Virus record (IMG/VR): IMGVR_UViG_3300005976_000005
Coordinates: 85,282-149,281 of that record
Length of the DNA stretch: 64,000 bases
Origin: a virus
Direction: 5' to 3' (one strand)
The notes under the pieces are model-generated. The model was not told the DNA's origin. It was given only the letters and a program-made list of their open reading frames with translations, and did not search any database. The position numbers and the translations under genes were made by a program. Each line of letters starts with the position of its first letter. Positions within the stretch are counted from its first letter, which is position 1. Below are positions 3,105 to 62,969 of the stretch, piece by piece.

Positions 3105-4054
3105 AATTTTGATAACATCCTTTTAAATTGTTCAAACCTATGATACTCTGTATGATTTGATAAAACAAACTTTCTTCCGTTAAATCTTATATGGTCAAAG
3201 CTTCCTGGATAACTTATTATCGCACTCATCACTTCCCCAAAATTCAAAGCATCTACATGAATATAATTGACTGAATGAACGAATCCAAGTTTCTTCATAT
3301 CTTCACAAGAATCCGATAACAATAAAGAACCAACAGAAGGAATCTCAAAATGTTTCATCAAAGTATATCTCACAATCGCACACGAAGACAAACAACATCT
3401 ATATTGATAAAGTGTATTTAAAAAGTCATACTTAAATTTAAAACCAGCTCGAAGCGCTTCTTCTGTTTTAATTTTGTAACCGGGGTGGTTAAGATTTTCA
3501 ACAAAATTTCCATATTTTTTTAAAACCGTTTGTCTTAAAGGATAGTAAAAACCCAACGCACCAGATACTAAACACTTATTTTTAGGATTTTCATTCATAG
3601 GAAGTCTTCTTGAATAATCTGAATTACCAACAAATTGAGGAAACCATTCTGCCTTTTTTACAAACTGAGGCCACATATTTCTAAAAGCTTCATCATACGC
3701 ATACATTATTCTGTCACATCTTTCCATTAACTTTTCACTTGCTTCAAAAAATTTGTTATTTTCCTCTTCCCTTTTAAATTTTTCATGCCAAGGATGAAGA
3801 TCAATAAAATATCCAATAAGTTTTTGGCTTTTAGGTAATTTGTATAAACTCTTCATCAAATCTGGTTCGTTCTTTTGGGGACTCTTGAATGTCATAACAA
3901 CATCATATTTCTTCAATTTAGTCGGACTAATATCATTACATACAATTCTATCAAACCCAAGATTATTCTCAATCAACTCAAACAAAGGCAAATATGTTTC
4001 AAATGAAGCAAAGTTACCACTATAAACTTCTGGAATCAACAGACACCCTTTCAT
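3101..4054 (-). CDS. GT-B glycosyltransferase-like protein (317 aa)
   Basis: It starts MKGCLLIPEVYSGNFASFE at ATG 4054 behind AGGAGTTGAATAA and overlaps the radical SAM stop by 4 bp. The layout suits a GT1/CgeB-like GT-B fold: an N-terminal domain (DVVMTFKSP, LIGYFIDLHPWHEKF), a hinge with DRIMYAYDEAFRNMWPQF, then a C-terminal domain with ALGFYYPLRQTVLKKY and SVGSLLLSDSCEDMKKLGF. The last is the nucleotide-sugar-facing segment of glycosyl_trans_1_2-type enzymes. It probably acts in the cytoplasm on the same glycan as its neighbours. The family is inferred from pattern, not from a search. Confidence 0.6.
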   Translation of the reverse strand: MKGCLLIPEVYSGNFASFETYLPLFELIENNLGFDRIVCNDISPTKLKKYDVVMTFKSPQKNEPDLMKSLYKLPKSQKLIGYFIDLHPWHEKFKREEENNKFFEASEKLMERCDRIMYAYDEAFRNMWPQFVKKAEWFPQFVGNSDYSRRLPMNENPKNKCLVSGALGFYYPLRQTVLKKYGNFVENLNHPGYKIKTEEALRAGFKFKYDFLNTLYQYRCCLSSCAIVRYTLMKHFEIPSVGSLLLSDSCEDMKKLGFVHSVNYIHVDALNFGEVMSAIISYPGSFDHIRFNGRKFVLSNHTEYHRFEQFKRMLSKL

Positions 4055-19472: not shown

Positions 19473-21482
19473 TTATCCTCTTGCTCCACCCTTCTTGTAT
19501 TCAGATGGTATTTGAGGAGATGGAACTTTCTCAATCTTCTCCTTTGGCTTTGAAGGAGACTTTGTGTAGTTTCCAGATGGTGCTGCCTTCTTGTCACTCT
19601 TTGGAACTTTACCAGCAGGTTCCATCTTATGCTTTGGCTTAGATGGAGACTTTGTGTAGTTTCCAGATGGTGCTGGTTTAGATGGAGACTTTGGTGCCGA
19701 TGGAACCTTCTCAATCTTTTCCTTTGGTTTCGAAGGATTCGATGTGAAGCCGTCAGCACTATGGTCAGATGCGTTGTAAATTTCTTCCTCGTCCATCTCC
19801 ATATATCTGTTTGCTAACTTAGCAAAACTCAATCCTTCTTCTGCCATTTCTTCCATTTCTTCTTCACTTCTATTCAGTGCGTTCTTCCACTGACTCTTGA
19901 ATTTAGATGAGTAATCGTCTTCACTTCTACTCTTATTTCTCTTCAACGCATCCTTCCACTGACTCTTGAATTTAGATTGGTAGTCCATTTCTTCTTCACC
20001 ATCTATAGCGACACTTATAGCAGCGTGGATCACATCTATTTCTTCGTCGGAAAGTCTTTCTCCAGAATGAAGCTTATCCATTACGTTGTCAAGAACCGCT
20101 GTGTCAGATTTTCCTTCTTTAGCGGCGGCGATAGCTCCGGCAATTATATCTCTTTCTGGTTCTGAAAGATTTTCACCGTCACGAACCTTTGCCATAACAT
20201 CTTCCAAGCCACCGTCGTCTTCCATTTCTTCTTCAGCATATTCCATTTCTTCTTCAGCATATTCCATCTCTTCTTCAGAAGTTCCTGGTCCAATAACCTC
20301 AAGCTGTTCAATAGGTGCCTCATACTCCTCACCATCCTGGTCAGTAACATAAGCAATATCACCTTCAAATCCAGCAACCATACAAGGCATTCCCTTGTAA
20401 AGAACTTCCTGACCATTCTTCAATGGGCAACCCATTTCTTCTTCACTGTATTTCATACCACACTCTTCTTCAGCATCATATTCCATTTCTTCAACTTCAT
20501 CAATAGTAAACTTAGACTTCTTCTTGTTGATATCCACACCAACAATCTCTTTATCTTTGGTAACTGAAACAACATTATACCAATCTTCGTTGACTTTTAC
20601 AAGTTTACCAACAAGCTTATTGAGGTCAAGGCTTTCTAAGTCATACATAGAAGAACCAGCATAACCTCTCTTTCTCATTGTCATTTCTTCTTCTGCTTCT
20701 TCATCATCACCACCAAGATCAGCGATGTCTTCCCAGTTTATAGCATCAGCATCTTCAGGTTCTTCTCCTGCGTCTTCTGACTCTTCACCAGCATCTTCAG
20801 GTTCTTCTCCTGCGTCTTCTGGCTCTTCACCAGCATCCTCAGGTTCTTCTTCCTCTGCTTCTCTAATGCTCTTGGATTCTGGATACATCTCTTCTTCAGC
20901 TTCTCCACCTTCTTCTGGCTCTTCCATCTGAACTGTAAATCCTTTGAAAAGAGTCTCAAGAGAATCTGTAAATGCCTTTAATTCTTCTTCACTATCAAAT
21001 TCGTGTTCTGACTTTTCAAGACCAGTTCCATCAGAAGGCTCTACCATTACCTTCATTCCTTCAACAGAAACCTTTACAATCTTTTCTTCCTCTGGTTCTT
21101 CTGTTTCCTCTTCAACAACGTCCTTTCTCGGTCTTCCTCTTTTCTTACCAGTAGATTCCATACCAAGACCAGACGATCTGTTTTTATCAACGTCATTATT
21201 GATAGTGATTCTGATTTCACCTTCATCAAGTGAGTTGACCTTCTCAACAACGTAATCCATATTGTTCTTAAGGAATTCAACGTCAATTGTTGAAGGAGCA
21301 ATTCTTTCATCTACGAATTCATTCTGAATTCTGTGAAGTGCTGTCTTCTTGTCTGAGTAATCATCATCAAAAGCTTCTCTGACGATGGATACAACCTTAT
21401 CCCATCTTTCCTTAATTATCTTCTCAGAAGCGGAAACATCCTCATTGAAGTTTTCTTTAAGATACTTTGTAAATTCTAACAT
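19473..21482 (-). CDS. Large acidic repeat protein with AT-hook and capsid-targeting-like N-terminus
   Basis: 669 aa, starting MLEFTKYLKE|NFNEDVS behind AGGAGAGAAGAT. In order: a helical N-terminal region; the AT-hook KKRGRPRKD near residue 115; tandem EEPEDAG repeats (about 215-245); beta-rich segments with VGKLVKVNEDWYNVVSVTKD; EEEMEYA repeats; two copies of SKFKSQWK(D/N)AL; and a Lys/Ser/Pro tail with repeated GNYTKSPSKPK. The strongly acidic middle and basic AT-hook and tail suggest a DNA-associated or scaffold-like internal protein. I know no homologue. Its place beside other targeted proteins supports packaging in the head. Confidence 0.7.
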   Translation of the reverse strand: MLEFTKYLKENFNEDVSASEKIIKERWDKVVSIVREAFDDDYSDKKTALHRIQNEFVDERIAPSTIDVEFLKNNMDYVVEKVNSLDEGEIRITINNDVDKNRSSGLGMESTGKKRGRPRKDVVEEETEEPEEEKIVKVSVEGMKVMVEPSDGTGLEKSEHEFDSEEELKAFTDSLETLFKGFTVQMEEPEEGGEAEEEMYPESKSIREAEEEEPEDAGEEPEDAGEEPEDAGEESEDAGEEPEDADAINWEDIADLGGDDEEAEEEMTMRKRGYAGSSMYDLESLDLNKLVGKLVKVNEDWYNVVSVTKDKEIVGVDINKKKSKFTIDEVEEMEYDAEEECGMKYSEEEMGCPLKNGQEVLYKGMPCMVAGFEGDIAYVTDQDGEEYEAPIEQLEVIGPGTSEEEMEYAEEEMEYAEEEMEDDGGLEDVMAKVRDGENLSEPERDIIAGAIAAAKEGKSDTAVLDNVMDKLHSGERLSDEEIDVIHAAISVAIDGEEEMDYQSKFKSQWKDALKRNKSRSEDDYSSKFKSQWKNALNRSEEEMEEMAEEGLSFAKLANRYMEMDEEEIYNASDHSADGFTSNPSKPKEKIEKVPSAPKSPSKPAPSGNYTKSPSKPKHKMEPAGKVPKSDKKAAPSGNYTKSPSKPKEKIEKVPSPQIPSEYKKGGARG

Positions 21483-21509
21483 ATCTTCTCTCCTATAATT
21501 ATGTGAAAA

Positions 21510-21656
21510 TCAATCATCATCTGTTTTAATAAATATTGTTTCTCCAAAGTCCAATTCTTCTGGCTCTTCATCTTCATCTTCAAAGCCATAGAAATCTTTG
21601 AAATCTTCGAAATCTTCAATGTCATTCTCGTCCCTAATATAATCATTGTTAGACAT
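21510..21656 (-). CDS. Small very acidic protein (48 aa)
   Basis: ATG 21656 overlaps the regA stop; GGAGTCGTTAG precedes it. The product (MSNNDYIRDENDIEDFEDFK, then DFYGFEDEDEEPEELDFGET) is nearly all acidic and aromatic residues. A TATAAATA box lies at 21682-21675 within regA. Function unknown; such peptides can mimic DNA or act as inhibitors, but there is no direct evidence here. Confidence 0.6.
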   Translation of the reverse strand: MSNNDYIRDENDIEDFEDFKDFYGFEDEDEEPEELDFGETIFIKTDDD

Positions 21657-49258: not shown

Positions 49259-50941
49259 TCATCTTTGTAAGTATTTATACTTTAATTGTCCCGAATTATA
49301 TATTCTATAAATTTTTCTTTCTGTCATAATCTCACGTTCTGACATATTTTCATCAAATCCATCTTCTATAAGTTTATCTTTACGATATTTAAACCTATTT
49401 TCTTTAATGTTATTTATATAAAAATAATTGGGCTTACTTATAGAATCTAAATCAAATCCCAATTTATCATAAAGGGTTTGCCCGTTATTCATTGTCCAAC
49501 TCCTATCGGCATAACTTATAACATCTTTAGGACAATAATTTCCGATGAAATATTTAAATAATTTACTAGCCCCACCAACAACATTAGTATTTATCTTATT
49601 ACAAAATCTTAACAATTCAAACGAACCCTCTTTATTTTTATTACCTAAACATTTTCTTAATTTACCAAATGTCATTAATGAGACTAATTCATCTTGGTAG
49701 TAAAGTCCAAATCTAATCTTTGACATACAGTTACCTTGAATATGGTTTTGTTCGAGAAATTCCTTCGAATCCTTGTAAGAGACTTCTTTAATTTCGGTTT
49801 TTCTAGCATAAACCTTTTTGGATTTACCAAGCAAATTTAAAATCCTAGATTTTACAACTTCTTGTTTGTAAATCCAATCATCTTCATAAATATGGACTAA
49901 ATGTATTCCGATCTCTTCGCATTGTTCGGTTTTATTTAAGTGATAATTTTTATCTTTATATAATTCCGAATGCCAATAAAGGCCATTGAACTCAAATGCT
50001 AATTTCAAATCTGGCAAATAAATGTCTAACTCATATGGGGTTATTATGTTTCTAACGTTTTCTTTAATGTTGTTTGAATAATTTTCTTTAACAAAATTTA
50101 TCATTTCTTTTTCTAAATGAGAAATTCCCATACATTTACATTTTTTACAACCATTTTTACCATTCATATGATTGTCTGGTCTTTGATAAAATATTTCATT
50201 ATGTTCTTTACATTTAATAGGAACACCTATTTGAACATTTTCTATTTCTTTTATTAAAGAATAATCAAAAGTATCGCCATGTATCTTAACACTTTTTTCA
50301 ATAAAATTTTCAACAGATATGCGATGGTTTAATCCATTTTCTTTATTAGCACAAAATTTACAACCATGGCCTCTATAATGTAAAATTGCCCTTTGTTTAA
50401 AAATTCCATGTAACGGACAAATTATATCTATCATAGATTGGCCGTTATTTATATTATTTACTAGAGAATAGTCGTACTTATCTCCATGAATATTATTAAA
50501 AACTTTCAAATAATCTTCTAAACTTTTCTTATAGTTTACACAACACTTGGGACAACCTTTTCCATTTTTTCTTAGATGTACTGTTGGTCTTTGTTCAAAT
50601 TTTCCATGTATAGGACATATTATTGTAACATTGTCATAATTGTTTTTACAATTTACTAAAGAATAATCGTACTTATTTCCATAAATTTTTATAGCTTCTT
50701 TTATAAATTTGGTTGTATTTAATCTTTTATAATTGTTTCTGTTTTCATTAGCACAAGATGGGCATCCAGATTTCTGTTTACCTATATGATATTGAGGTTG
50801 TTGCCAAAAATATCCATGTTTTGGGCATTTTATACAAACTTTAGTTTCACAATTAATATATTTTACTTTAGAATAATCGTACTTATCTCCATGAACTTTT
50901 TTTGACTTTTGTATAAAAATTGAATCGTTTAATTTTTTCAA
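49259..50941 (-). CDS. Free-standing homing endonuclease (zinc-ribbon repeats + Vsr-like core)
   Basis: Start taken at TTG 50941 (AAGGAGATTATA upstream), giving LKKLNDSIFIQKSKKVHGDK; a longer ATG frame from 51019 lacks a ribosome site. Five KYDYSxV...CPxHGxFxQxPxxH...C..C units come first. Then comes the Vsr/EDxHD-type nuclease: LPDLKLAFEFNGLYWHSELY, NYHLNKTEQCEEIGIHLVHI, YEDDW. The last ~190 residues (FLEQNHIQGNCMSKIRFGLY, VVGGASKLFKYFIGNY, ISYADRSWTMNNGQTLYDKL) look GNAT-like and are shared by all the large endonucleases here. It splits the sheath from the tube gene and has its own consensus promoter. Confidence 0.85.
   Translation of the reverse strand: MKKLNDSIFIQKSKKVHGDKYDYSKVKYINCETKVCIKCPKHGYFWQQPQYHIGKQKSGCPSCANENRNNYKRLNTTKFIKEAIKIYGNKYDYSLVNCKNNYDNVTIICPIHGKFEQRPTVHLRKNGKGCPKCCVNYKKSLEDYLKVFNNIHGDKYDYSLVNNINNGQSMIDIICPLHGIFKQRAILHYRGHGCKFCANKENGLNHRISVENFIEKSVKIHGDTFDYSLIKEIENVQIGVPIKCKEHNEIFYQRPDNHMNGKNGCKKCKCMGISHLEKEMINFVKENYSNNIKENVRNIITPYELDIYLPDLKLAFEFNGLYWHSELYKDKNYHLNKTEQCEEIGIHLVHIYEDDWIYKQEVVKSRILNLLGKSKKVYARKTEIKEVSYKDSKEFLEQNHIQGNCMSKIRFGLYYQDELVSLMTFGKLRKCLGNKNKEGSFELLRFCNKINTNVVGGASKLFKYFIGNYCPKDVISYADRSWTMNNGQTLYDKLGFDLDSISKPNYFYINNIKENRFKYRKDKLIEDGFDENMSEREIMTERKIYRIYNSGQLKYKYLQR
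49272..49279 (-). promoter_or_regulatory. TATAAATA late-type box
   Basis: Exact box on the minus strand near the 3' end of the endonuclease gene, 99 bp upstream of the gene at 49173. It could restore late transcription of the tube genes downstream of the insertion. Confidence 0.4.
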
Positions 50942-51033
50942 TATAATCTCCTTGATAGATTTAATAAAAAAGTGGTAATCCTTACTAATCAAGGTTTCAG
51001 GAAATGGTTTGCAACCCACTGTCCCACTTTTAT

Positions 51034-52986: not shown

Positions 52987-53151
52987 TTAATTATCTTGAC
53001 TAGAAGTTTTCTTTCTTCTACTAACTTTCTTTTCCGATGACTGTTTGACTTCAACAACTTCTGGTTCTTTCAATTTATCAGTCTCTTTCTTATTTATATT
53101 AGCAGTGCTTTTGACTGCTAATCCTGCTCTTGGCTTTCTCGAATCTCTCAT
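52987..53151 (-). CDS. Small basic protein (54 aa)
   Basis: ATG 53151 behind TTTGGAGGATTT, between gp17 and gp18. MRDSRKPRAGLAVKSTANIN then KKETDKLKEPEVVEV and KKVSRRKKTSS: lysine/arginine-rich, probably disordered. It could bind DNA or the packaging motor. No family recognised. Confidence 0.7.
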   Translation of the reverse strand: MRDSRKPRAGLAVKSTANINKKETDKLKEPEVVEVKQSSEKKVSRRKKTSSQDN

Positions 53152-53164
53152 AAATCCTCCAAAA

Positions 53165-53192
53165 TATTTATACTAATTCAGTTGTATTTATA
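53165..53192 (-). promoter_or_regulatory. Tandem TATAAATA late-type boxes
   Basis: Two exact TATAAATA boxes (53192-53185 and 53172-53165) lie on the minus strand between gp17 and the 54-aa gene, 20 bp apart. This is the most convincing late-promoter site in the window, directly ahead of the abundant sheath gene. Confidence 0.6.
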
Positions 53193-53198
53193 CTTTTA

Positions 53199-55382
53199 CT
53201 ACAAATCTCCATCAAAAATAACTGAAGGCATCCATCTCGGATCAGCTTCACTATCTTTCTCTTCCCTCATGTCAGGGATATCATCTTCCCATTCACCAAC
53301 ACGAATATTATACTCGTCTTCAATTGACTTGGAATCATAGGTCCTTCCCTCAAAATCATCCGTTATGATAAAGTAAAGAGCCCAAAGTAAAGAAGTAACA
53401 CAATTATGAACAACAATTCCATCACATACAAAACTTTCATCCTCATCAACACTAATATTATATACTGTTCCTTTAAAATGACTTTTTTTGATTTGTTTTA
53501 TATTCTTTGATTTTGATATTTTATGACTAACTTCAAAATTTGAAATTTCATTTATACTTTTACTATTACAATTTCCGTTGTAATCATCATAAATTGTAAC
53601 GTGATATTGATCCTTTTCATTTATTTTTTTCTTGTGAACGTGTTGGATGTTTGCTTTTTTGCCTATTGAAATTGCTATATCTCTCATATCTAAAGCTAGC
53701 TTTTTACTAATAGTAGCCCCAACAAAACATTTAGAATGTTTACTTCTTTCACAAACATAACCGTCACCTTTCAACCAATATTCTAATACATATTTTAAAT
53801 CGTAACCTAATTTAAACGCATAAAAAGGTAATACTTTATTTCTTGAGTCGTCATAGCAATAACTCATAAGATAATGTAATAATTTGTTTGCAAACTGAAT
53901 TGTACAACCATTATTGTCTTTTTCAAATCTTAATGAAGTAGAAATTCCTAAAGAATTCAAATATTCTTTCATTTCCGTAATCAAGTCAGTGTGTTTTTTA
54001 TCAAAAGCAATTGTCATTCTATAATGATATTTTTTACCATCTTTATAAGCGTGGCCATTTGCTAAAAATAAACCCAAAAACTTAGCAAAGTTATCATCCA
54101 TTTTTATATCAATTTTCTTATTATTTCCCTTACTTTCAACATAGTCTTCATACAAATATTTTTCATCTTCATTATCTTTCAGGGGCATTTTTACACTAAT
54201 ACACGATTGTTCATTCCAATCTCTAGCGAAGACCCAATCTCTATCCGATGTATAAATTGGATGATTATAACTACAAGACAAATTCAATTGACCTTCGAAT
54301 TTTATATCGTACCAATCACCATCAAATTCTTTTTCAATTAAATTTGTTACTTTTCTCCATCTTCCTTTGTGAGTCAAAACTTCGTCACCGATTACTACAT
54401 CTACGATTGGTATATAACCTCTTTTAGTTTTGACTAAAGCATCTTTCTTAAAACAGTCATCATGGTCATGTCTTCCAGCAGCAAATACATTCGGTCTAAC
54501 TTCCTCATATCTACTAAGCTCGTAAAGCGTCTTTTCATCGCATATAGAAAGTCTATCCTTTTCAAGATACTCCTTCAATAACATGTTAGCTTTTAGCTTT
54601 GTCTTCTTTGTGCTTCTTATTCCAAGTCCCTTAGGATCAGCATTAATCAAATTCTCATATTCAAACTCATGCCAAACTGAATCAGCAACAGTCTGTCCAA
54701 TATCATTATTTTCAACCATCATATGAGCATTATTGTAATACTTTGCTACAGAGACACATACTTGAGCGAAGTCATGTGGTCTTATCAAGTTGTTTCTATA
54801 AATTGCCACCTGTTCAACATCAAATTCATTCTTTATACGAAGAACCTGAATAACAGAATAATCCTTTCCGGTTCCTTTCGCAGTATCTACACCAAGCACA
54901 TATTCACCACCAGGCACAGGCTGCTTAAATATAGAAAGAAGTCCTTCCCACTTTGTAGCAACTGGGTCCTTGAAATGTATTCTCTCAAGCACATCGGAGT
55001 CAATAAGAGTTGACTGACTTCCAAGAAACTTACAATTCTTACTAACAATATCATTTGTATAATAAGAATTATCGGAAGATTCTACTTCAAGAAGAGTATA
55101 AACTTTTTCTTTCTTTTTGTTTAATTCAACCTTAACTATTTCTTTTAATCCATCTTTTGTTTCTAAAACATCTCCTTCAAGAAGATACTTGGCAATTTCT
55201 TCGTTCCCGTTTATAATAAATGTATGGTCAGTGGAAACTTCAATTACATTACCATCTTCCAAAGTAAATTTAAGAATTTGAACTTCTTCTTCAATTTCAC
55301 CAACCCCAGCAAAAGGTTTAAATCCTTCTGGTGTTTCAACTTCATAACTATTCAATAATTTCGTGTTTGTTTTTAAACTCAT
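53199..55382 (-). CDS. 17: Large terminase gp17, fragment 3 (intein-3 C-half, nuclease domain, intein 4)
   Basis: Residues 1-116 are the C-half of split intein 3, ending SKN|C. Residues 117-309 are terminase: CKFLGSQSTLID, YVLGVDTAKGTGKDYSVIQV (first nuclease Asp), MMVENNDIGQTVADSVWHEF (Glu), and GRHDHDD. Residues 310-660 are intein 4. Residues 661-727 (CVTSLLWALYFIITDD...) finish the terminase. D, E and HDD correspond to the RuvC-like nuclease residues of T4 gp17. ATG 55382 follows a modest GGAAG and overlaps the upstream endonuclease gene. It needs trans-splicing to the fragment at 58567-60891 to give a whole motor. Confidence 0.92.
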   Translation of the reverse strand: MSLKTNTKLLNSYEVETPEGFKPFAGVGEIEEEVQILKFTLEDGNVIEVSTDHTFIINGNEEIAKYLLEGDVLETKDGLKEIVKVELNKKKEKVYTLLEVESSDNSYYTNDIVSKNCKFLGSQSTLIDSDVLERIHFKDPVATKWEGLLSIFKQPVPGGEYVLGVDTAKGTGKDYSVIQVLRIKNEFDVEQVAIYRNNLIRPHDFAQVCVSVAKYYNNAHMMVENNDIGQTVADSVWHEFEYENLINADPKGLGIRSTKKTKLKANMLLKEYLEKDRLSICDEKTLYELSRYEEVRPNVFAAGRHDHDDCFKKDALVKTKRGYIPIVDVVIGDEVLTHKGRWRKVTNLIEKEFDGDWYDIKFEGQLNLSCSYNHPIYTSDRDWVFARDWNEQSCISVKMPLKDNEDEKYLYEDYVESKGNNKKIDIKMDDNFAKFLGLFLANGHAYKDGKKYHYRMTIAFDKKHTDLITEMKEYLNSLGISTSLRFEKDNNGCTIQFANKLLHYLMSYCYDDSRNKVLPFYAFKLGYDLKYVLEYWLKGDGYVCERSKHSKCFVGATISKKLALDMRDIAISIGKKANIQHVHKKKINEKDQYHVTIYDDYNGNCNSKSINEISNFEVSHKISKSKNIKQIKKSHFKGTVYNISVDEDESFVCDGIVVHNCVTSLLWALYFIITDDFEGRTYDSKSIEDEYNIRVGEWEDDIPDMREEKDSEADPRWMPSVIFDGDL
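53403..54455 (-). other. Intein 4 (351 aa, contiguous, LAGLIDADG) in gp17 nuclease site
   Basis: It starts with Cys in HDHDD|CFKKDALVKT and ends VVHN|CVTSLL, so both splice junctions are canonical (Cys1, His-Asn, Cys+1). Block B is LNLSCSYNHPIYTSD. The endonuclease motifs are FLGLFLANGHAY and LEYWLKGDGYV. The first has Asn where the catalytic acid usually is, so cutting is doubtful. It is inserted directly after the catalytic Asp-Asp pair. Confidence 0.9.
55035..55382 (-). other. Split intein 3, C-terminal half (116 aa)
   Basis: It begins at the ATG MSLKTNTKLLNSYEVETPEG. Block B is VIEVSTDHTFIINGN. It ends VYTLLEVESSDNSYYTNDIV then SKN|C+1. The penultimate His of most inteins is Lys here. 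Its partner is the 30-residue N-half at 58570-58659. Confidence 0.88.
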
Positions 55383-55411
55383 ATTTTATACTTCCACTAT
55401 CATATATTCTA
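55331..55411. repeat. 81-bp exact repeat, copy 1
   Basis: Identical to 56982-57062 (offset 1651). Read on the minus strand it encodes the last ~20 codons of an endonuclease gene (RIYDSGSIKYEFKNKHEIIE) and, in another frame, the first codons of the intein-3 C-half (MSLKTNTKLLNSYEVET). Confidence 0.95.
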
Positions 55412-56841
55412 TAAATATTTCTTTCTAACATAATCTGATGTTCTGATTTATTAACATCGAAACCCTGTTCAACTAAAACATTTTTACGATATTTAAATCT
55501 ATTTTCTCTAATTCCTTTATTCACATAATAGTAATTTGGTTGTGTGATACAATGTAATTTAAAACCTAAATTATCATATAAAGTTTTACCATTATTCATT
55601 GTCCAACTTCTGTCAGCATAACTAATAATAGAACTAAACGTATAATTATTTATAAAATACTTAAACAACTTATTAGCACCACCAACAACAGAAGTATTTA
55701 TCTTGTTACAAAACCTTAACAATTCATATAAACCTTCTTTTGATTGTTGTCCTAAACATTTTCTTAATTTACCAAAAGTCATTAAAGAAACTAATTCGTT
55801 TTCATAATAAAGTCCCAATCTAATTTTAGATATACAATTACCTTGAATATGATTTTTTTCGAGAAATTCTCTACTTTCTTTATATGAGACTTCTTTTATT
55901 TCAGTCTTTCTTGCAAAAATCTTTTTAGATTTACCAAGTAAATTAAGTATCCTAGACTTAACAATATCTTGTTTATATGTCCAGTCGTCTTCATATATGT
56001 GTATTAAATGGATTTCTTTATCATTCAACTCACATTTTAAAGTTTTATCTAAATGATAATTTTTATGAACAAATTTTTCAGAGTGCCAATATAATCCATT
56101 AAATTCAAAAGCCAATTTTAAATCTGGTAAATAAACATCTAATTCATATGGGTTAATAATATTTTTTACATTTACCAACACTTCACCAAAATAATTTTTT
56201 TCAATAAATTTTAAAAAATCCTTTTCAACATTAGAAAAATTAGCGTTACATTTTGGACAACCTCTATTATATCTCAAATGATTAGATGGTAATTGTTCAA
56301 ATTCACCATGTACTAAACAAACTATTTTGACATTTTTATGAGTTTTAATATATTCTACTTTTGAATAATCATACTTATCACCATGTACTTCTCTTGCTTT
56401 TTTAATAAAATATTCATTATTCATTGGTTGACATTGAGTCTTATTTAACATTCCACATTTTTTACAACCAAATTTTCTTGGAATATGTTTAGAAGGCGAT
56501 TGCCAAAATTCACCATGTTCTGGACAAATTATACAAACTTTAGTATGATAATTAATATATTCAACTTTACTATAGTCATATTTATCATTATGTACTTCTC
56601 TTGCTTTTTTAATAAATTCATTTTTATTCATTTTTAATTTTCTTTTTCTTTCTTCTTTTGCACATATTTTACAACCCTTTCCCCTCAAATGATTATTCGG
56701 ATTCTGTTTAAATTCTAAATCATGCTTTTTACATATTATTACTATTTTACTTTTATAATTCACATTATTATCCAACAAAGAATAATCATACTTTTCACCA
56801 TGAATCTTTTTTGCCTTTTTAATAAACAATTCTCTTTTCAT
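55348..56841 (-). CDS. Free-standing homing endonuclease inside split intein 3 (497 aa)
   Basis: Three zinc-ribbon units (KYDYSxVxY ... CPxHGEF(W/E)Q) follow MKRELFIKKAKKIHGEKYDY. The Vsr-like core follows: LPDLKLAFEFNGLYWHSEKF, YHLDKTLKCE, IHLIHIYEDDW. Then the shared GNAT-like end. The stop lies inside the intein-3 C-half gene, so the endonuclease has fused itself to the split point. TTTAAGGAGTTTATAA precedes ATG. This is the arrangement described for fractured phage genes with split inteins. Confidence 0.9.
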   Translation of the reverse strand: MKRELFIKKAKKIHGEKYDYSLLDNNVNYKSKIVIICKKHDLEFKQNPNNHLRGKGCKICAKEERKRKLKMNKNEFIKKAREVHNDKYDYSKVEYINYHTKVCIICPEHGEFWQSPSKHIPRKFGCKKCGMLNKTQCQPMNNEYFIKKAREVHGDKYDYSKVEYIKTHKNVKIVCLVHGEFEQLPSNHLRYNRGCPKCNANFSNVEKDFLKFIEKNYFGEVLVNVKNIINPYELDVYLPDLKLAFEFNGLYWHSEKFVHKNYHLDKTLKCELNDKEIHLIHIYEDDWTYKQDIVKSRILNLLGKSKKIFARKTEIKEVSYKESREFLEKNHIQGNCISKIRLGLYYENELVSLMTFGKLRKCLGQQSKEGLYELLRFCNKINTSVVGGANKLFKYFINNYTFSSIISYADRSWTMNNGKTLYDNLGFKLHCITQPNYYYVNKGIRENRFKYRKNVLVEQGFDVNKSEHQIMLERNIYRIYDSGSIKYEFKNKHEIIE

Positions 56842-56888
56842 TTATAAACTCCTTAAAAAACAAATCTTTAATTGTTCCTTTTGTATAT

Positions 56889-56918
56889 ATTATAATTTTG
56901 TAAATAAAAAAAAGTCAA
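56889..56918 (-). promoter_or_regulatory. Sigma-70-like promoter of the inner endonuclease gene
   Basis: On the minus strand TTGACT (56918-56913), 18 bp, TATAAT (56894-56889), 48 bp before ATG 56841. The spacer includes a run of Ts. Confidence 0.7.
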
Positions 56919-56981
56919 CTTTAACAAATTATTTACTTTTAATATCTCTAAAGTAAATTTTAAAATTTAAACTTCTTCCTA

Positions 56982-57062
56982 GTGTTTCAACTTCATAACT
57001 ATTCAATAATTTCGTGTTTGTTTTTAAACTCATATTTTATACTTCCACTATCATATATTCTA
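56982..57062. repeat. 81-bp exact repeat, copy 2
   Basis: Copy of 55331-55411. Here the intein-3 C-half start (ATG 57032, MSLKTNTKLLNSYEVET) is intact for about 17 codons and then runs into unrelated sequence, so it is a dead stub carried along with the endonuclease gene. Confidence 0.95.
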
Positions 57063-58477
57063 AATAAACCTCTTTTTAACATTATTTCATGTTCTGATTT
57101 ATTAACATCGAAACCCTGTTCAACTAAAACATTTTTACGATATTTGAATCTTCCTTCACGTCTCCTATTAACAATATAATAATAATTTGATTTTGAAATA
57201 TGATATAACTTAAAACCAATCTTATCATACAATGTATTACCATTATTCATTGTCCAACTTCTGTCAGCATAACTTATAACTTCTTTTGGAGTAAACTCTC
57301 GAAGAAAATGTTTAAACAATTTTTGAGCACCACCAACAACCGTAGTGTTTAGCTTATTACAAAATCTAATTAGTTCGAACAATCCTTTTCCACTTTTATT
57401 ACCCAAACATTTTCTTAATTTACCAAAAGTCATTAAAGACACTAATTCATTATCATAATAAAGTCCCAATCTAATCTTAGATACACAATTTCCCTGTATG
57501 TGATTTTTTTCGAGAAATTCTTTTGAATCTTTATATGAGACTTCTTTTATTTCAGTCTTTCTTGCAAAAATCTTTTTAGATTTACCAAGTAAATTAAGTA
57601 TTCTTGATTTAACTATATCTTGTTTAAAAACCCAATCGTCTTCGTAAATATGTACTAAGTGAATTCCTTTTTCTTCACATTTATTAGTTTTATCTAAATG
57701 ATAATTTTTATCTTTATATTTTTCATTATGCCATTCAATTCCATTAAATTCGAATGCAATTTTTAAATCAGGTAAATAAATATCTAATTCTTTACCTTTT
57801 AAAATATTTCTATCATTTAATAATATTAAGCCTGTGTAATTTATTTTAATAAAATCTTTCAATTCATTCTCTAATTTAGAAATTCCATCAAAACCAAAAG
57901 GATTACATATTAAACAAATGTTTTCTTTATTTCTATATCTATCATATAAAATTTGAGAATCTAATTCAAAAAATTGTTTACATACTTCACAATAATATCT
58001 AACTTCAGATTTATTTAAATATTCAACTAAACTAATTTTTTGACCCAATTCATTTATTATATTATTAATATTTTGTATTGCTTTAGCTTTATTTCTTATT
58101 TTAGCTTTATTAATTGATTTAGAAATTTTACCAGCAGAATTTACTCCATATTTTTTTAAACAAGTCTTTTTTCTCTTTTCATTTTCTTTATCAACATCTC
58201 TCGTTTTAAAAGATTCAATAATTTTATTTCTAACATATTCAGACTTTTGTTGATGCTTTAAACAACAAAATTTAGCATATCCTTTATAATAACCATAAAA
58301 CTTAGTTTCTTTTCCACAATGTAAACATCTTCCTTCATCTTCTTTTCTAATACATTTATCATAATATTCTTTCATATTCATATTATGATTTGGTTTAAGA
58401 TGATATCTACTGAAACTATCAATTGTTAAATTGGTCTGAGTATTACAAATCTTACAAAATATTCTTTCTTTTTCCAT
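56999..58477 (-). CDS. Second homing endonuclease inside split intein 3 (492 aa, different N-terminus)
   Basis: The N-terminus is unlike the others: FCKICNTQTNLTIDSFSRYH, RCLHCGKETKFYGYYKGYAK then FCCLKHQQKSEY (zinc fingers), KKTCLKKYGVNSAGKISKSI (NUMOD-like), YYCEVCKQFFELDSQILYDR. The nuclease core is the same Vsr-like type: LPDLKIAFEFNGIEWHNEKY, YHLDKTNKCEEKGIHLVHIY, EDDW, followed by the shared GNAT-like region. ATAAGGAGTCCAAA precedes ATG 58477. It follows a structured RNA-like segment. Confidence 0.87.
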   Translation of the reverse strand: MEKERIFCKICNTQTNLTIDSFSRYHLKPNHNMNMKEYYDKCIRKEDEGRCLHCGKETKFYGYYKGYAKFCCLKHQQKSEYVRNKIIESFKTRDVDKENEKRKKTCLKKYGVNSAGKISKSINKAKIRNKAKAIQNINNIINELGQKISLVEYLNKSEVRYYCEVCKQFFELDSQILYDRYRNKENICLICNPFGFDGISKLENELKDFIKINYTGLILLNDRNILKGKELDIYLPDLKIAFEFNGIEWHNEKYKDKNYHLDKTNKCEEKGIHLVHIYEDDWVFKQDIVKSRILNLLGKSKKIFARKTEIKEVSYKDSKEFLEKNHIQGNCVSKIRLGLYYDNELVSLMTFGKLRKCLGNKSGKGLFELIRFCNKLNTTVVGGAQKLFKHFLREFTPKEVISYADRSWTMNNGNTLYDKIGFKLYHISKSNYYYIVNRRREGRFKYRKNVLVEQGFDVNKSEHEIMLKRGLFRIYDSGSIKYEFKNKHEIIE

Positions 58478-58501
58478 TTTGGACTCCTTATAAATAAATT
58501 T

Positions 58502-58564
58502 TAGAGGGACAGACAGGCCAATTGGACTCGCCTGTTTGCAGAATTGCCGTTCTGCTTACCTCTA
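58502..58564 (-). other. Predicted three-way-junction RNA structure
   Basis: Minus strand, directly after the stop of terminase fragment 2. The outer stem UAGAGG/CCUCUA (6 bp) encloses two perfect 6-bp hairpins: GCAGAA-loop-UUCUGC, and ACAGGC-loop-GCCUGU whose 11-nt loop contains most of a palindromic CCAATTGG. No U-run follows. It matches no ribozyme or riboswitch core that I know. Confidence 0.55.
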
Positions 58565-58566
58565 TA

Positions 58567-60891
58567 TTATTTATCTTTAAATAAATCTCCTATTTTCAAT
58601 TTTTTTATCAAATTTGTCTCTCTATCTCTAATATTTATAATAGTTTCTGATTTTACACAAGAAAATTCTTGGGCAAATCTAATAGGTCCAATATCAGCAA
58701 TCATCTCTTCCTTCCACTCTTCATCTCTACCAGGAACTTCCCACCAACCAACACGAATAGGAAAGAAGTTGTTTGACTTTTCCTTTCTTACTGCCTTTGA
58801 CCAGAACTCATAAAAGTGGTTCAAACCTTTGGGAGTTTGATGTCCGACATATCCGTTGTATAAAACTGAATGACACCATTTATCATCTTCAATATGATTC
58901 AATGAAAAATCAAAAACTTCATTCTCAGATTCTTCAATAGAATTTATTTTAAACCATTTTAAATCACTTCTAACATTATTTTCAATAAAAATTTTCAATT
59001 TATCATTTTCAGAATCAAGTATTTCTTTTTTTCTTTTCAATAAATATTTTCTCGAAAAAACCTTTTTACCAACTCCATTATTAAACAAATTCATTTTACG
59101 AACTTCATTAGAATAATTTTCTTTAATAATTTCTCTCGAAAATGGAATTATATCATGACTATTTCTAGTTCCTTTAAAATCAAGAAATTTTAAATTATTT
59201 TGTTTTCTTTCAAAATTAAATCCAACTAAATTATAAAATTTTAATGAATTTTCTTTATCCATCAATAATCTATAATTTTTAGTTATTTTTTTAACTTTTT
59301 TAGTTGGTTTTGTATCAATTTCTAAATAATCAGTAATAATTCCTAAATTTAATAATAACATTTTAATTTGTAATATCATTTTTTTTGAATTCATAGAAAT
59401 TCCAACAATACCATTATCTTTTCTTGAGTAACCATCTCCATCAAAAATTCCAGATAACATTGCTAAAATGTTTTTCTTACTCATCGAAAGAAGTTTATTT
59501 GGAATATATTTTTCTTCAGCCTTTAATTTTAAATTAAACCCAATATGCTCTAAAAATAAAACTAAGTCCTTACACATAATATTATAATGAAACTTACCAT
59601 CAAAATAATAACTTAAACCCAAATCATCTAAATATTTCTTTACATTATCTCCACATGTAATAGTTACAGAACCCCCAACAAATATATCATTCTCATTATA
59701 TTTTTTATAGACATTACCTTTCGCCAAAAATAAACCCAAAAAATAAGCCAATTTCTCATTTATTTTTTTACATTCGAAAATATTTTTAAATCTATTTGAT
59801 TTTTCTGAATTAAAACCCACAAAATCATCATTACCCCAAACATTCATACCATATTTAATAGAAATAAAATCTCCAACATCTAAATCAGATGATTTATACC
59901 AACCATATTTTCCATTTTTACATGCCCACAATTTATGATTTTTAGAGCATTCTAATTTTCCAAAAGTTGTTTTTAAAATATTAGTCTTAACACGTCCACT
60001 ATTATACATAGTAATACCTTTTCTAAGACCACCCATACCAACAACTTTATACTCTGGAACATCATATGATTCTTCTCTATTTTCATCAATAAAGTTTTCA
60101 ACAGTTCTAATACCTTTATCAGTAAACACAAAAGTATCTTTAGTAACGCAAGAAATCATTATTATCTTACAAGTTTTACCACTTGATATAACAGGATAAG
60201 TTGATGTGATGAATTCTTCTGCTACGTGTGCTGGTACCTTTGCGAACTCATCAAGGAAAAGAAGGTTGACCATCAATGATGTAAGAGCTTCAGCAGATGT
60301 TGCTGATGCTATTATTCTTGAACCATTTTCAAAAACAACAGACTTCTTATTCCATCCATCATCTGTCAATCCCTGTTGTAACCAAAGAGGTAGCATTCCA
60401 ATAGCCATTTTAATTCTCTTCAAGATATCAATTGCGGCATCTTGTTTATGAGCAACAATAGCTACCGTTTTGTCTTTATTAAACAATGCGTACCAAAGAA
60501 GGAATATTGTTGAAATAGTCGTATTATGTGAAAGTATTCCGTTTGTAAATAATGTATGATTCTTTGAATTAACTGTCAAATCAAACATTTCTTCTGGTTC
60601 AACTCTTAACTTTTCAACAGATATAATTTTTTGTAAACCAGACTTCGTAATAACTTTATCATCTTTAGTTAAATCTTTTACAAATTTTTCTTTCATCCCT
60701 TCAACCATTACAATATGATCGTCTGCACATTTAAGACTATATGATAATGTCTTTAGCTCCCAAACATCATATTTAACAGTTTTATGTAAATGAGTTATAT
60801 CTTTCCAACCATCTTCAGTTTCAATTTCCCATTCATCTAATTCAAAAGATTCATTAAATTTTTCATCTGTAGGTTCTATCTGTTTAATCAT
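58567..60891 (-). CDS. 17: Large terminase gp17, fragment 2 (intein-1 C-half, ATPase, intein 2, intein-3 N-half)
   Basis: Residues 1-123 are the C-half of split intein 1 (ends SHN|T). Residues 124-247 are ATPase: TTISTIFLLWYALF continues the Walker A, LMVNLLFLDEFAKVPAHVAE is Walker B, KTCKIIMIS the coupling strand. Residues 248-685 are intein 2. Residues 686-744 are terminase TPKGLNHFYEFW (T4 TTPNGLNHFYDIW) to IRFAQEFS. Residues 745-774 are the N-half of split intein 3. GGAG before ATG 60891. It thus needs trans-splicing at both ends. Confidence 0.93.
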   Translation of the reverse strand: MIKQIEPTDEKFNESFELDEWEIETEDGWKDITHLHKTVKYDVWELKTLSYSLKCADDHIVMVEGMKEKFVKDLTKDDKVITKSGLQKIISVEKLRVEPEEMFDLTVNSKNHTLFTNGILSHNTTISTIFLLWYALFNKDKTVAIVAHKQDAAIDILKRIKMAIGMLPLWLQQGLTDDGWNKKSVVFENGSRIIASATSAEALTSLMVNLLFLDEFAKVPAHVAEEFITSTYPVISSGKTCKIIMISCVTKDTFVFTDKGIRTVENFIDENREESYDVPEYKVVGMGGLRKGITMYNSGRVKTNILKTTFGKLECSKNHKLWACKNGKYGWYKSSDLDVGDFISIKYGMNVWGNDDFVGFNSEKSNRFKNIFECKKINEKLAYFLGLFLAKGNVYKKYNENDIFVGGSVTITCGDNVKKYLDDLGLSYYFDGKFHYNIMCKDLVLFLEHIGFNLKLKAEEKYIPNKLLSMSKKNILAMLSGIFDGDGYSRKDNGIVGISMNSKKMILQIKMLLLNLGIITDYLEIDTKPTKKVKKITKNYRLLMDKENSLKFYNLVGFNFERKQNNLKFLDFKGTRNSHDIIPFSREIIKENYSNEVRKMNLFNNGVGKKVFSRKYLLKRKKEILDSENDKLKIFIENNVRSDLKWFKINSIEESENEVFDFSLNHIEDDKWCHSVLYNGYVGHQTPKGLNHFYEFWSKAVRKEKSNNFFPIRVGWWEVPGRDEEWKEEMIADIGPIRFAQEFSCVKSETIINIRDRETNLIKKLKIGDLFKDK
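58570..58659 (-). other. Split intein 3, N-terminal half (30 aa)
   Basis: CVKSETIINIRDRETNLIKK then LKIGDLFKDK-stop, following AQEFS. This is intein block A only. The break falls about 30 residues in, as in the atypically split AceL-TerL-type inteins and unlike DnaE-type splits near residue 100. Confidence 0.88.
58837..60150 (-). other. Intein 2 (438 aa, contiguous, LAGLIDADG) in gp17 coupling motif
   Basis: Cys1 follows IIMIS; CVTKDTFVFTDKGIRTVENF is block A and KLECSKNHKLWACKNG block B. FLGLFLAKGNVY and LSGIFDGDGYS are the two LAGLIDADG motifs; the first has Lys in place of the catalytic acid. The end is VLYNGYVGHQ|TPKG: terminal Gln instead of Asn, and Thr+1, both seen in some inteins. 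Confidence 0.9.
60523..60891 (-). other. Split intein 1, C-terminal half (123 aa)
   Basis: It starts MIKQIEPTDEKFNESFELDE. Block B is LKCADDHIVMV. The end FDLTVNSKNHTLFTNGILSH-N|T is canonical block F/G with His-Asn and Thr+1. Its partner is the 33-residue N-half at 61147-61245. Confidence 0.9.
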
Positions 60892-60911
60892 TTAAAAACT
60901 CCAAACAGTCT

Positions 60912-61128
60912 TTTATTACTTTTTCAGGATTGTCTTTATAATCTTTTTTTCTTCAAATTTCTTTATCCATTTATCTTGTCTCTCTTGCCATCTTTTTAAA
61001 CCTTCTTCTTTACCATACTTTTTAATACAAATTTCTTTGCTAAATGTAGTCTGTCTTTCTTTAACTTTTTACGTAGATTCCTCTTCAGTAAATCCTTTCT
61101 TAATCCAATATTCAACCCAAAATGACAA
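60912..61128 (-). pseudogene. Homing endonuclease remnant between the halves of intein 1
   Basis: The frame reads WVEYWIKKGFTEEEST-stop-KVKERQTTFSKEI then YGKEEGLKRWQERQDKWIKK. After an A-run it continues one frame over as KDYKDNPEKVIKDCLEFL. Such Lys/Glu-rich WIKKGFxEEEA...KYGEEEGxxRWxxRQ segments are typical of N-terminal parts of phage endonucleases. It has one stop, one frameshift and no nuclease core. Confidence 0.6.
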
Positions 61129-61143
61129 AAAAATATAAAAAAA

Positions 61144-61500
61144 CTAAGATTTTTTTATCTTATCATAAAATTCACCAACAGATATTTCTTTAATTTCTCC
61201 AGTTTTTTTATTCCTAACCTTTATGTGATTGTTTTCACAAAAACATTTGCCACTTTGTCTGGCTATCTTAACGACACAATGCTTCTTACCACCCGGATTC
61301 TCTACGTAAGCTTTCAGAACCTTTTTCTGCCAGTCGTAAAGTGTTATCTTCTCTTTACCTCTATCAGGGTGAATTATGTAGAAATATTTCTCAGAAAAAT
61401 ATATGATATCTTGACTACATCTAATTAGTTCGTTTATCATATCTTGCGTGTAGTCTACCTTCTCTCCTGATCTTCTTAAGTTGGCATTACCTTGAAACAT
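61144..61500 (-). CDS. 17: Large terminase gp17, fragment 1 (N-terminus to Walker A + intein-1 N-half)
   Basis: ATG 61500 with AAGGATGATTGATT upstream. MFQGNANLRRSGEKVDYTQD, INELIRCSQDIIYFSEKYFY, LYDWQKKVLKAYVENPGGKK (the adenine-binding Q motif region) and CVVKIARQSGK, the first part of a Walker A as in T4 (RQLGKTT). The chain then enters the intein with CFCENNHIKVRNKKTGEIKE and stops 33 residues later. No ATPase is possible until this is joined to fragment 2. Confidence 0.93.
   Translation of the reverse strand: MFQGNANLRRSGEKVDYTQDMINELIRCSQDIIYFSEKYFYIIHPDRGKEKITLYDWQKKVLKAYVENPGGKKHCVVKIARQSGKCFCENNHIKVRNKKTGEIKEISVGEFYDKIKKS
61147..61245 (-). other. Split intein 1, N-terminal half (33 aa)
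   Basis: It begins at Cys directly after RQSGK and reads CFCENNHIKVRNKKTGEIKE then ISVGEFYDKIKKS-stop. Block A only, so an atypical early split, matching the 123-residue C-half at 60523-60891. Confidence 0.9.
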
Positions 61501-61502
61501 AA

Positions 61503-62018
61503 TCAATCATCCTTTCTATTTGGAATGTTTTCATTTTCTACTTCAAAATCTGCTTCTATAGCATTCATCTCACTTCTTTCACTTGCCTTGTTTATCATAT
61601 CAAGCAACTGCTCAGAACTCAGTGATATCTTGTTGTTCCCAATATCCTCAATATCTACTTGTCCTGTTTTAACATGAGCCTCAAATATGCTCTTGTTAAG
61701 TTCAAGAAGTGAGTTGTATAGTTTTCCGATTGACTCTATTAGTTTAGAGTAAACTTCTATCTTCCTATTGTCACATCCAATCTTTATATCCTGCTCGACC
61801 TTATATTGAACCGTCCTAGTTGACATAATCAACGTTCTCAATTCACTTCTTATAAAATCCTCGTCCTGGAAAACAGCAGGGTTCTTAGCTTGAGCTTTGA
61901 CAATCTCCTTTCTATTCTCTATTGTTTGAATATCATTCTTGACTAACTCAACCTCTTTGTCAAATTTTTCTTCTTCTTTTATGTCGAACGCGCTTGTTAA
62001 TCCTTCAAATCCTTCCAT
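61503..62018 (-). CDS. 16: Small terminase subunit gp16-like
   Basis: About 171 aa (T4 gp16 is 164), directly before gp17. The core is helical/coiled coil: TVQYKVEQDIKIGCDNRKIE then VYSKLIESIGKLYNSLLELN, with an acidic C-terminus (EADFEVENENIPNRKDD). In T4 gp16 forms a ring that recognises DNA and regulates gp17. ATG 62018 is chosen for its spacing to AAGGAG. Confidence 0.85.
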   Translation of the reverse strand: MEGFEGLTSAFDIKEEEKFDKEVELVKNDIQTIENRKEIVKAQAKNPAVFQDEDFIRSELRTLIMSTRTVQYKVEQDIKIGCDNRKIEVYSKLIESIGKLYNSLLELNKSIFEAHVKTGQVDIEDIGNNKISLSSEQLLDMINKASERSEMNAIEADFEVENENIPNRKDD

Positions 62019-62030
62019 AATAAACACTCC

Positions 62031-62969
62031 TTACGTTATTGTGTCTGCGCTTGTAAACCATCTAAAGCCCTTCTCATCATCCAAGTAATCTCCACTGAAT
62101 GTGTACTGAGCACTTGTTGGAAGTGCGCTTGTCGTGAGACTATCGGCAGAAGTAAACAAAAATCCTGAAGTACTAAATGTATCAGCAGAAACAACAATTC
62201 CATCAAAGTCTGAGCTACTTACTGATGTTGCTGAAACAGCAGGACTAGATGAATCAACAACAAAGTACTTACTATCAATGATCTTGATAATATTGCTATA
62301 TTCGAATGGTCTGTACATCCAAGCTTCTACTGTCAAATCTAGTGTTCCATTAACATATCTTCTATCATCATCTGATATCTCTGGTGATATAAACTCTGGA
62401 ACCACTCCTGGCATTGTAACTCTCAAGTCTCTTTCAACATTAAGAAACGAAAATTCCTTGACTCTTAGAAACAAAGCAGGGTTGAAATATGGTAAAACAT
62501 TTTCCATTATTTGAGAAAAGTAATCCATAGAGTCTGTCATTATATGCATCGTATAACTTATATCATATGGTGCTGGTTGGTAGTCTCTAAGAATTTCATC
62601 AACATTTACTCCACTGGTAGCAATTATCTCCTGAAACCATTCTCTCCATTCATTCACACCATATGCTCTTTCAGCGTTATAAGCGATACCATTCATAACT
62701 AGTGCGATTCTTGGTGTAGAAATCCAATATCTCTGACCGTGTGATTCAACTTGAGCATATCCATTCTCATCGGTCGCGCTTGCTATATATTCATGATCTT
62801 CTATTCTATTTTGGTGTTCTTTCTCCACGGGACCAAATGAAATAGGAACATTGTACTCCTTTACGAATTCACCTGTTGATGTGTACTTGTGAACCTTTAG
62901 ATCATTAAATAAGTCCATCAAAGCAACAGTTACATTTTTAATGGTTCGTGGATAATAATAAAAAATCAT
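62031..62969 (-). CDS. 15: Tail terminator / sheath stabiliser gp15-like
   Basis: 312 aa. FYYYPRTIKNVTVALMDLFN (T4 gp15 starts FGYFYNSSFRRYATLMGDLF), YNVPISFGPVEKEHQNR, YQPAPYDISYTMHIMTDSMD then FSQIMENVLPYFNPALFLRV, and LDLTVEAWMYRP all align with T4 gp15. The C-terminal ~80 residues are an added Ser/Thr-rich tail. gp15 caps the tail and joins it to the neck. The gene order 15-16-17-18-19 is that of T4. Confidence 0.9.
   Translation of the reverse strand: MIFYYYPRTIKNVTVALMDLFNDLKVHKYTSTGEFVKEYNVPISFGPVEKEHQNRIEDHEYIASATDENGYAQVESHGQRYWISTPRIALVMNGIAYNAERAYGVNEWREWFQEIIATSGVNVDEILRDYQPAPYDISYTMHIMTDSMDYFSQIMENVLPYFNPALFLRVKEFSFLNVERDLRVTMPGVVPEFISPEISDDDRRYVNGTLDLTVEAWMYRPFEYSNIIKIIDSKYFVVDSSSPAVSATSVSSSDFDGIVVSADTFSTSGFLFTSADSLTTSALPTSAQYTFSGDYLDDEKGFRWFTSADTIT

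Follow-up and report, generated by a model that had tools for sequence, protein, structure and literature searches.

Four inteins, two of them split, in the large terminase gene of a T4-like phage, and recurrence of split inteins in related terminases

The terminase locus

The DNA analysed here, called the window, comprises 64,000 nucleotides (nt) of IMG/VR virus record IMGVR_UViG_3300005976_000005 (positions 85,282 to 149,281) and forms the last 64 kb of this 149,281-base record. The gene for the large terminase subunit (terL) of a T4-like phage was present as three open reading frames (ORFs) on the minus strand, at 61506-61144, 60891-58567 and 55382-53199. Together they held five exteins and four inteins (Table 1). 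An earlier model-made reading of the letters, the original prediction, had placed the ORFs at 61500-61144, 60891-58567 and 55382-53199, where all three were present; extein 1 starts with either TTG at 61506 or ATG at 61500. Contig 3300005965_000014 was identical over the covered part and showed the whole arrangement. Three further contigs (L002, L008 and L010) were also identical over their covered parts and showed the arrangement in part.

Table 1. Parts of the fractured terL gene in the order of its strand (window coordinates; a slash marks an intein junction; aa, amino acids; HEG, homing endonuclease gene; E, expectation value)
Feature	Position	Strand	Evidence
Extein 1 (TerL N-terminus to Walker A, ...RQSGK)	61246..61506	-	phrog_5989/36964 terminase; gap-free to L007
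Intein 1 N-half, 33 aa + stop	61144..61245	-	Cys1; site 1 split in 43/160 readable clusters
Site-1 fracture, decayed homing-endonuclease gene, 252 nt	60892..61143	-	57 codons 66.7% identical to L114 endonuclease ORF
Intein 1 C-half, 123 aa, end LSHN/T	60523..60891	-	TIGR01443; profile matches VidaL 6vgv, E 3.3e-8
Extein 2 (ATPase core, Walker B FLDE)	60151..60522	-	PF03237; alignment
Intein 2, cis, 438 aa, LAGLIDADG domain	58837..60150	-	PF14890, PF14528; alignment with seven site-2 inteins of relatives
Extein 3	58660..58836	-	gap-free to L007
Intein 3 N-half, 30 aa + stop	58567..58659	-	Cys1; homologues at same site
HEG-A, 492 aa, chimeric homing endonuclease, site-3 fracture	56999..58477	-	phrog_3339, E 3.5e-113
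Intein 3 C-half start remnant, at end of and behind HEG-A	56946..57033	-	tblastn; direct repeat
HEG-B, 497 aa, homing endonuclease	55348..56841	-	phrog_559, E 6e-120; 80% to L011 ORF
Intein 3 C-half, 116 aa, end VSKN/C	55035..55382	-	profile matches CatC 6dsl, E 2.3e-12
Extein 4 (nuclease domain to HDD)	54456..55034	-	PF17289; alignment
Intein 4, cis, 351 aa, LAGLIDADG, end VVHN/C	53403..54455	-	PF14890, PF14528, TIGR01443
Extein 5 (TerL C-terminus) + stop	53199..53402	-	36/67 identical to L007, no gap

The exteins were matched by PHROG terminase families and by the profiles of both the N-terminal ATPase and the C-terminal nuclease (PF03237 and PF17289), as in large terminases of the T4 gp17 type. 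Profile matches above the cut-offs were Terminase_6N, Terminase_6C, Intein_splicing, LAGLIDADG_3 and TIGR01443. The Intein_splicing match in the third gene lay barely above its cut-off, and matches to TIGR01445 fell short of theirs.

Joined exteins and intein junctions

Alignment of the joined exteins to gp17 without gaps had been set as a test by the original prediction. It was passed against the TerL of relative L007, which stood in for T4 gp17 and encodes terL as a single intein-free open frame (1887-3476). The five exteins followed each other along this protein with zero gap or overlap at all four junctions. Their lengths were 87, 124, 59, 193 and 67 aa, with 74, 115, 56, 165 and 36 identical residues, respectively. 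The sum is 530 aa from TTG 61506 and 528 aa from ATG 61500. By reading, the exteins retained RQSGK/TT, FLDE, GVDTAKG, ENND and HDD, which we take to be Walker A, Walker B and the acidic motifs of the nuclease. An intact terL elsewhere in the genome, named beforehand as refuting the prediction, was not found on the 149,281-base record; every extein piece was present once.

The inteins were inserted at Walker A (GK/T, site 1), at S/TPKG (site 2), at EFS/C before the nuclease domain (site 3) and at HDD/C (site 4). Class 1 inteins require Cys or Ser as first residue, a block-B His, a terminal Asn or Gln, and Cys, Thr or Ser at position +1. These features were found in all four inteins. Each begins with Cys, the block-B His lies in CADDH, CSKNH, STDH and CSYNH, and the ends read LSHN/T, VGHQ/T, VSKN/C and VVHN/C (inteins 1 to 4, respectively). 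Cutting the ORFs at the predicted junctions gave the N-halves of 33 and 30 residues that had been foreseen for inteins 1 and 3. Both show the atypical split layout of two ORFs, with a short N-half and a long C-half with its own start (33/123 and 30/116 aa). Among solved structures, the best match was VidaL for the profile of the site-1 C-half and CatC for that of the site-3 C-half. The prediction of four inteins, two of them atypically split, was thus borne out by the anatomy, the intein-free relative L007, the substitution ratios given below and the Protein Data Bank (PDB) matches.

The endonucleases of the cis inteins 2 and 4 are probably inactive, because the first acid of their LAGLIDADG motifs is replaced. 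Active LAGLIDADG inteins carry an acidic residue in both motifs; the first motif reads LGLFLAKG in intein 2 (Lys) and LGLFLANG in intein 4 (Asn). Relatives L017 and L028 have Glu at this position at site 2. When the whole 149,281-base record was scanned with the Pfam intein profile, the sole match lay in intein 4, below the cut-off. The scan missed intein 2 and was therefore uninformative on further inteins in the record. An intein fragment candidate at 21357-21656 was rejected as an acidic frame containing a stop.

Endonuclease genes in the two fractures

The original prediction had pointed to described gene fractures at split inteins with a Vsr-like endonuclease in between. In the window, two free-standing endonuclease genes, HEG-A and HEG-B, were present in the site-3 fracture, and the site-1 fracture contained only a decayed remnant, whose relative was an endonuclease ORF in L114 (E 4e-26, small database). 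HEG-A is chimeric: residues 1-117 were 74% identical to the endonuclease ORF at the same place in L005, and residues 149-492 were 68% identical to HEG-B and 61% to the L011 ORF. HEG-B overlaps the start of the intein 3 C-half by 35 nt. The 3' parts of HEG-A and HEG-B form a direct repeat of 925 alignment columns with 79.9% identity that reaches into the start of the C-intein; therefore, a truncated C-intein copy lies behind HEG-A. The PHROG names for the fracture endonucleases were homing or HNH endonuclease. The nuclease profile PF18741 gave a weak match below the cut-off for HEG-A (E 0.024) and no match for HEG-B. A third endonuclease of the same family was located at 49259-51019 on the minus strand, downstream of the sheath gene, with 69% identity to the C-terminal part of HEG-A.

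Survey of related terminases

To sample relatives, proteins of the window and alignments of extein 2, extein 4 and both C-halves served as scan queries, and nine named phage records were added. Together they yielded at least 280 loci, not counting a piece of the record that holds the window; three scans contributed up to 80 loci each. At least two extein pieces were present in 261 of the 281 entries (280 loci and the window), which formed 193 clusters by identical DNA of extein 2 or extein 4. Sites 1, 2 and 3 and the Walker B region were all readable in 160 clusters, and the 33 clusters lacking a site were left out. As the survey was seeded with the window, all proportions describe this sample and are not a population estimate.

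No verified split was present in 103 of the 160 readable clusters; 39 had one, 17 had two and one had three. Thus, 18 clusters carried at least two split inteins; grouping by 90% identity over the front portion of extein 2 reduced them to 15 groups. Among the 115 readable clusters reached via the two extein scans, there were four. Site 1 was split in 43 clusters and held a contiguous intein in three. Site 3 was split in 29 (three contiguous), the Walker B region in eight (three contiguous; several exact positions) and site 2 in none (five contiguous). The HDD/C intein of site 4 occurred in the window's cluster only, with the site readable in 46 of the 193 clusters. The original prediction had known of no phage terminase with the full set of inteins. 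The HDD/C intein was indeed found only here, but multiple splits recurred in the 18 clusters.

Contiguous inteins were found at site 1 in L020, L190, L240 and L281 and at site 3 in L202, L203, L268 and L269. Fractures of relatives at the same sites varied in gap length and endonuclease type. An ORF of at least 100 codons lay inside 71 of 98 fractures, not all of them identified. In L237, L268 and L270, the C-half frame opened -4 to 6 nt from the stop of the N-half, with no endonuclease. A site-3 split was present in eight of the nine fetched GenBank phages (PX29, Va1, VP-1, EniLVp02, 1.244.A, PSTRCR_127, 92A1 and AsFcp_2), these eight having been chosen because their matches extended into the C-intein. 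Va1 failed the start-residue test, its N-half reading ECVSGS... Splits in L274, L019, L224, L267 and L279 failed the scripted test and were excluded from the counts. A site-2 'split' in L016, outside the 160 clusters, had a C-half without its own start and was read as a probable frame-shifted cis intein.

Several relatives showed further peculiarities. The site-1 fracture of L241 carried a TnpB-like gene (PF01385, PF07282 and PF12323) where other phages carry an endonuclease ORF. Within the site-1 fracture of the L188 record lay another terL-like stretch (G015:C1:215976-216680), divergent and interrupted by a stop in one of its parts. L202 and L203, which shared approximately 98% identity in three of the four pieces aligned, differed by an endonuclease in the site-1 fracture that was mostly deleted in one of them, with gaps of 1440 and 614 nt, respectively. 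Inteins of the Walker B region, some split and some contiguous, were located at several positions (GKS/C, N/C..LDE, LI/CDE and DE/C) in L189, L197, L198, L202, L203, L221, L223, L236, L251 and L267.

Two metagenome contigs were read as encoding terL in four genes. L223 (25,444-base record) had three splits. L251 (235,765-base record) had three split inteins and one cis intein and thereby exceeded the window phage in terL fragmentation. Its order was extein 1 and IntN1; IntC1, extein 2a and an N-half; an endonuclease ORF; a C-half, extein 2b, a LAGLIDADG intein, extein 3 and IntN3; and IntC3 with extein 4 (IntN and IntC denote N- and C-halves, numbered by intein). The Walker B split of L251 failed the scripted test because Cys1 lay inside the query segment, and was counted as the third split from reading its translation. 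No other terL match was found on the 235,765-base record.

Intein families by site and recent exchange at site 3

A tree was calculated from 83 split inteins, 51 from site 1 and 32 from site 3. It took 51 of 54 site-1 and 31 of 34 site-3 splits that passed the filters, plus L230; a shifted boundary truncated the N-half of L247. The alignment had 144 columns, and 30 of the 74 inner branches were left open. The two sites stood on opposite sides of one branch with an SH-aLRT (Shimodaira-Hasegawa-like approximate likelihood ratio test) support of 99. The tree needed one change of site (average over 500 shuffles, about 25.6) and showed no switch between sites 1 and 3 among the 83 inteins. This separation would fit a need for orthogonal pairs.

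L230 and L231 carried a 988-nt cassette at site 3, and the same site was empty in L232. The endonuclease gene of the cassette shared 83% identity with the L245 GIY-YIG gene. Upstream, L231 and L232 differed by eight mismatches in 3,224 nt, six of them within 49 nt of the insertion (binomial 3e-10). Downstream, the first 1,400 nt contained seven mismatches, of which five lay within 72 nt (binomial 7e-6). The limits, including the 1,400-nt stretch, were picked after the fact. About 1,556 nt downstream, divergence set in again, with 100 more differences by 2,581. L230 displayed the inner part of the tract only. The pattern is the mark of recent homing, with co-conversion at a repaired break, or of allele replacement; the outgroups L245 and L233 leave the direction undecided. 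The recent exchange is direct for L230 to L232, and a similar event may have taken place in the window by analogy.

Selection on exteins and inteins

Ratios of non-synonymous to synonymous substitutions (dN/dS) were calculated by the Nei-Gojobori method against five intein-sharing relatives (L005, L011, L012, L013 and L017) and the intein-free L007, with saturated dS set to 3. For exteins, dN/dS was below 0.1 in 15 of 19 comparisons; the remaining values were 0.18 for extein 2 against L017 and 0.10, 0.19 and 0.62 for extein 5. Both C-halves are under purifying selection, with values of 0.09-0.10 for IntC1 and 0.05-0.15 for IntC3. IntN1 showed 0.20. Against the five intein-sharing relatives, intein dS was 0.29-0.86 in nine of 11 values, and all extein dS ranged from 1.1 to saturated. 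The lower intein dS therefore suggests a later arrival of the inteins in these lineages, once the exteins had already diverged. The selection on the C-halves, the lower intein dS and the near-identity of the L230 IntC3 to CatC favour real trans-splicing.

Neighbouring genes and sequence signals

The genes upstream of terL encode a small terminase resembling gp16 (weak match to phrog_445) and a tail sheath stabiliser resembling gp15; downstream lies a gp18-like sheath gene. We take this order of gp15-, gp16-, terL- and gp18-like genes to be that of T4. The starts of the terL genes were preceded by Shine-Dalgarno-like sequences, with GGAG before the start of the second gene. The sequence TATAAATA, presumably resembling the T4 late promoter, had 19 copies on the terL strand and four on the opposite strand of the whole window. 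One copy lay within the intein 3 N-half at 58639 and another in HEG-B at 55654.

Proposed assembly of the terminase and alternatives

With a probability of roughly 0.88, this terL would need trans-splicing at sites 1 and 3 and cis-splicing at sites 2 and 4 to give a motor of about 528 aa. The original prediction had proposed the same two trans and two cis reactions, and the anatomy, the comparison with L007, dN/dS and the PDB matches point to them. Three polypeptides would be made: extein 1 with IntN1; IntC1, extein 2, intein 2, extein 3 and IntN3; and IntC3, extein 4, intein 4 and extein 5. Inteins 2 and 4 would excise themselves in cis. The cognate halves at site 1 and at site 3 would pair and splice in trans, yielding one continuous motor. 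Since site 1 lies within Walker A and site 4 within the HDD motif, unspliced chains should be inactive. Anatomy, junctions, selection, separation of families by site and recent site-3 exchange in relatives are read directly from sequence; splicing, orthogonality of the pairs, endonuclease activity and the order and direction of events are inferred.

The fractures may have arisen through insertion of homing-endonuclease genes about 30-45 aa into mini-inteins. A split intein and its endonuclease would then form a mobile cassette homing into empty terL alleles. In the window phage, the site-1 endonuclease would have decayed and the site-3 slot would have been invaded twice, by the HEG-A chimera and by HEG-B. 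The occurrence of contiguous, endonuclease-bearing, decayed-endonuclease and clean-split forms suggests this order, in which a mini-intein is split by an incoming endonuclease gene that may be lost later. It is doubtful, though conceivable, that phage terminases collect mutually orthogonal, site-locked families of split inteins, so that some phages obtain their motor only through two or three serial trans-splicing events among three or four polypeptides, and that this need acts as a timing or checkpoint device for DNA packaging.

Several observations weigh against these readings. Intein 3 has Lys in place of the usual penultimate His, and intein 2 ends with Gln (GHQ/T). Extein 5 gave dN/dS values of 0.10-0.62. 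The ratio was 0.43 for intein 2 and 0.25-0.66 for IntN3, the latter on 30 codons only. Two intein dS values were not low, 1.37 for IntN3 against L005 and 1.04 for IntC3 against L012. Site-specific homing alone would equally give the separation by site, which is no proof of orthogonality. The L231/L232 pattern would equally be left by an empty allele replacing a full one, so that gain and loss are not told apart. Finally, the record is perhaps incomplete, and a second terL may lie off the contig.

It is very unlikely that the gene works in pieces without splicing, its fragments assembling non-covalently into a motor. The endonuclease-interrupted ribonucleotide reductase of a T4-like phage reportedly works as such an assembly, and the break at site 3 is close to a domain edge. 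However, site 1 cuts Walker A and site 4 cuts the HDD motif. Furthermore, the C-halves are under purifying selection, the N-halves retain Cys1, and the C-halves retain the block-B His, the terminal Asn and Thr or Cys at position +1. Slightly less probable still is a dead copy, with the fractured terL being a pseudogene or part of a defective phage and the true terminase lying off the contig. The 149-kb record has no stated completeness, which would leave room for this, but the exteins are under strong purifying selection, another contig carries the same arrangement, and at least two splits occur in 15 groups of relatives. Moreover, no second intact terL was found in 16 chosen related records, several of them short fragments. 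The poorest account is joining at the RNA level, with introns rather than split inteins taking the fractures out of the mRNA, as documented for the terL mRNA of phage ICP1 (PMC10448857): a Rfam scan of 53000-62100 gave no RNA family above the threshold (three snoRNA matches lay below it), the extein borders match intein ends and not ORF breaks, and the gaps of -4 to 6 nt in L237, L268 and L270 leave no room for an intron.

Comparison with known systems

The site-3 C-half of L230, whose intein lies at the site of intein 3 of the window, matched CatC (6dsl) at E 2e-55; CatC is presumably the Cat-TerL of the review cited below. Intein 3 joins the AceL/GOS/Cat-TerL family via the CatC sequence and the site, with AceL and GOS set beside it by their listed figures. 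AceL-TerL, GOS-TerL and Cat-TerL are atypical split inteins of terminases, and they share with intein 3 the terminase host, the short N-half and Cys+1; the review reports homologues of this kind as active (PMC11766414). The site-3 intein of L233 begins with Ser1, is divided into 37 and 115 aa and is followed by Cys+1, as the review lists for GOS-TerL (PMC11766414). Since L230 matches CatC and L233 fits the GOS-TerL figures, the laboratory-studied TerL split inteins very probably come from site 3. Those were studied as single pairs out of context, whereas the pair of the window is one of four inteins and stands beside a second split pair. The site-1 C-half is likened by sequence alone to VidaL (6vgv), its best PDB match, with an E of only 3.3e-8.

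In Aeromonas phage PX29, the N-intein and the C-intein of genes 17A/17B are annotated in GenBank. Its terL resembles that of the window in the site-3 split and differs from it in having one fracture and a GIY-YIG endonuclease fused to the C-half. Dassa et al. (2009) reportedly described genes fractured by split inteins with free-standing endonucleases. The terL of the window resembles those reported systems in that a split intein breaks the gene and a free-standing endonuclease gene lies between the halves. It differs from them in combining two fractures with two cis inteins, and in one fracture a C-intein remnant accompanies two endonuclease genes.

Earlier work has already described terminases with split inteins, genes that are fractured and genes with more than one intein (PMC11766414, PMC3322345 and PMC6195587). 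Tandem split-intein assembly schemes have been built by engineers (PMC12707363). No description of a natural protein with at least two split inteins, or of one joined from three or four chains by several different split inteins, was found in open-licence PMC papers, a weak negative. The survey yields sets of split inteins kept together in one protein by evolution, which are candidate orthogonal tools. L230 to L232 offer a close-up of recent split-intein cassette exchange at a terminase site, and the long-debated origin of split inteins becomes testable with a series that runs from contiguous inteins over splits with an intact or a decayed endonuclease to clean splits. In terL of Campylobacter phage IBB_35, an intein and a mobE-like endonuclease interrupt the gene; the authors report one intein and an intron, whereas the window has several inteins, two of them split (PMC3322345). 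The arrangement in the window is a recurrent variant of the known fractured-gene and split-intein arrangement, with a wider spread than the original prediction had claimed.

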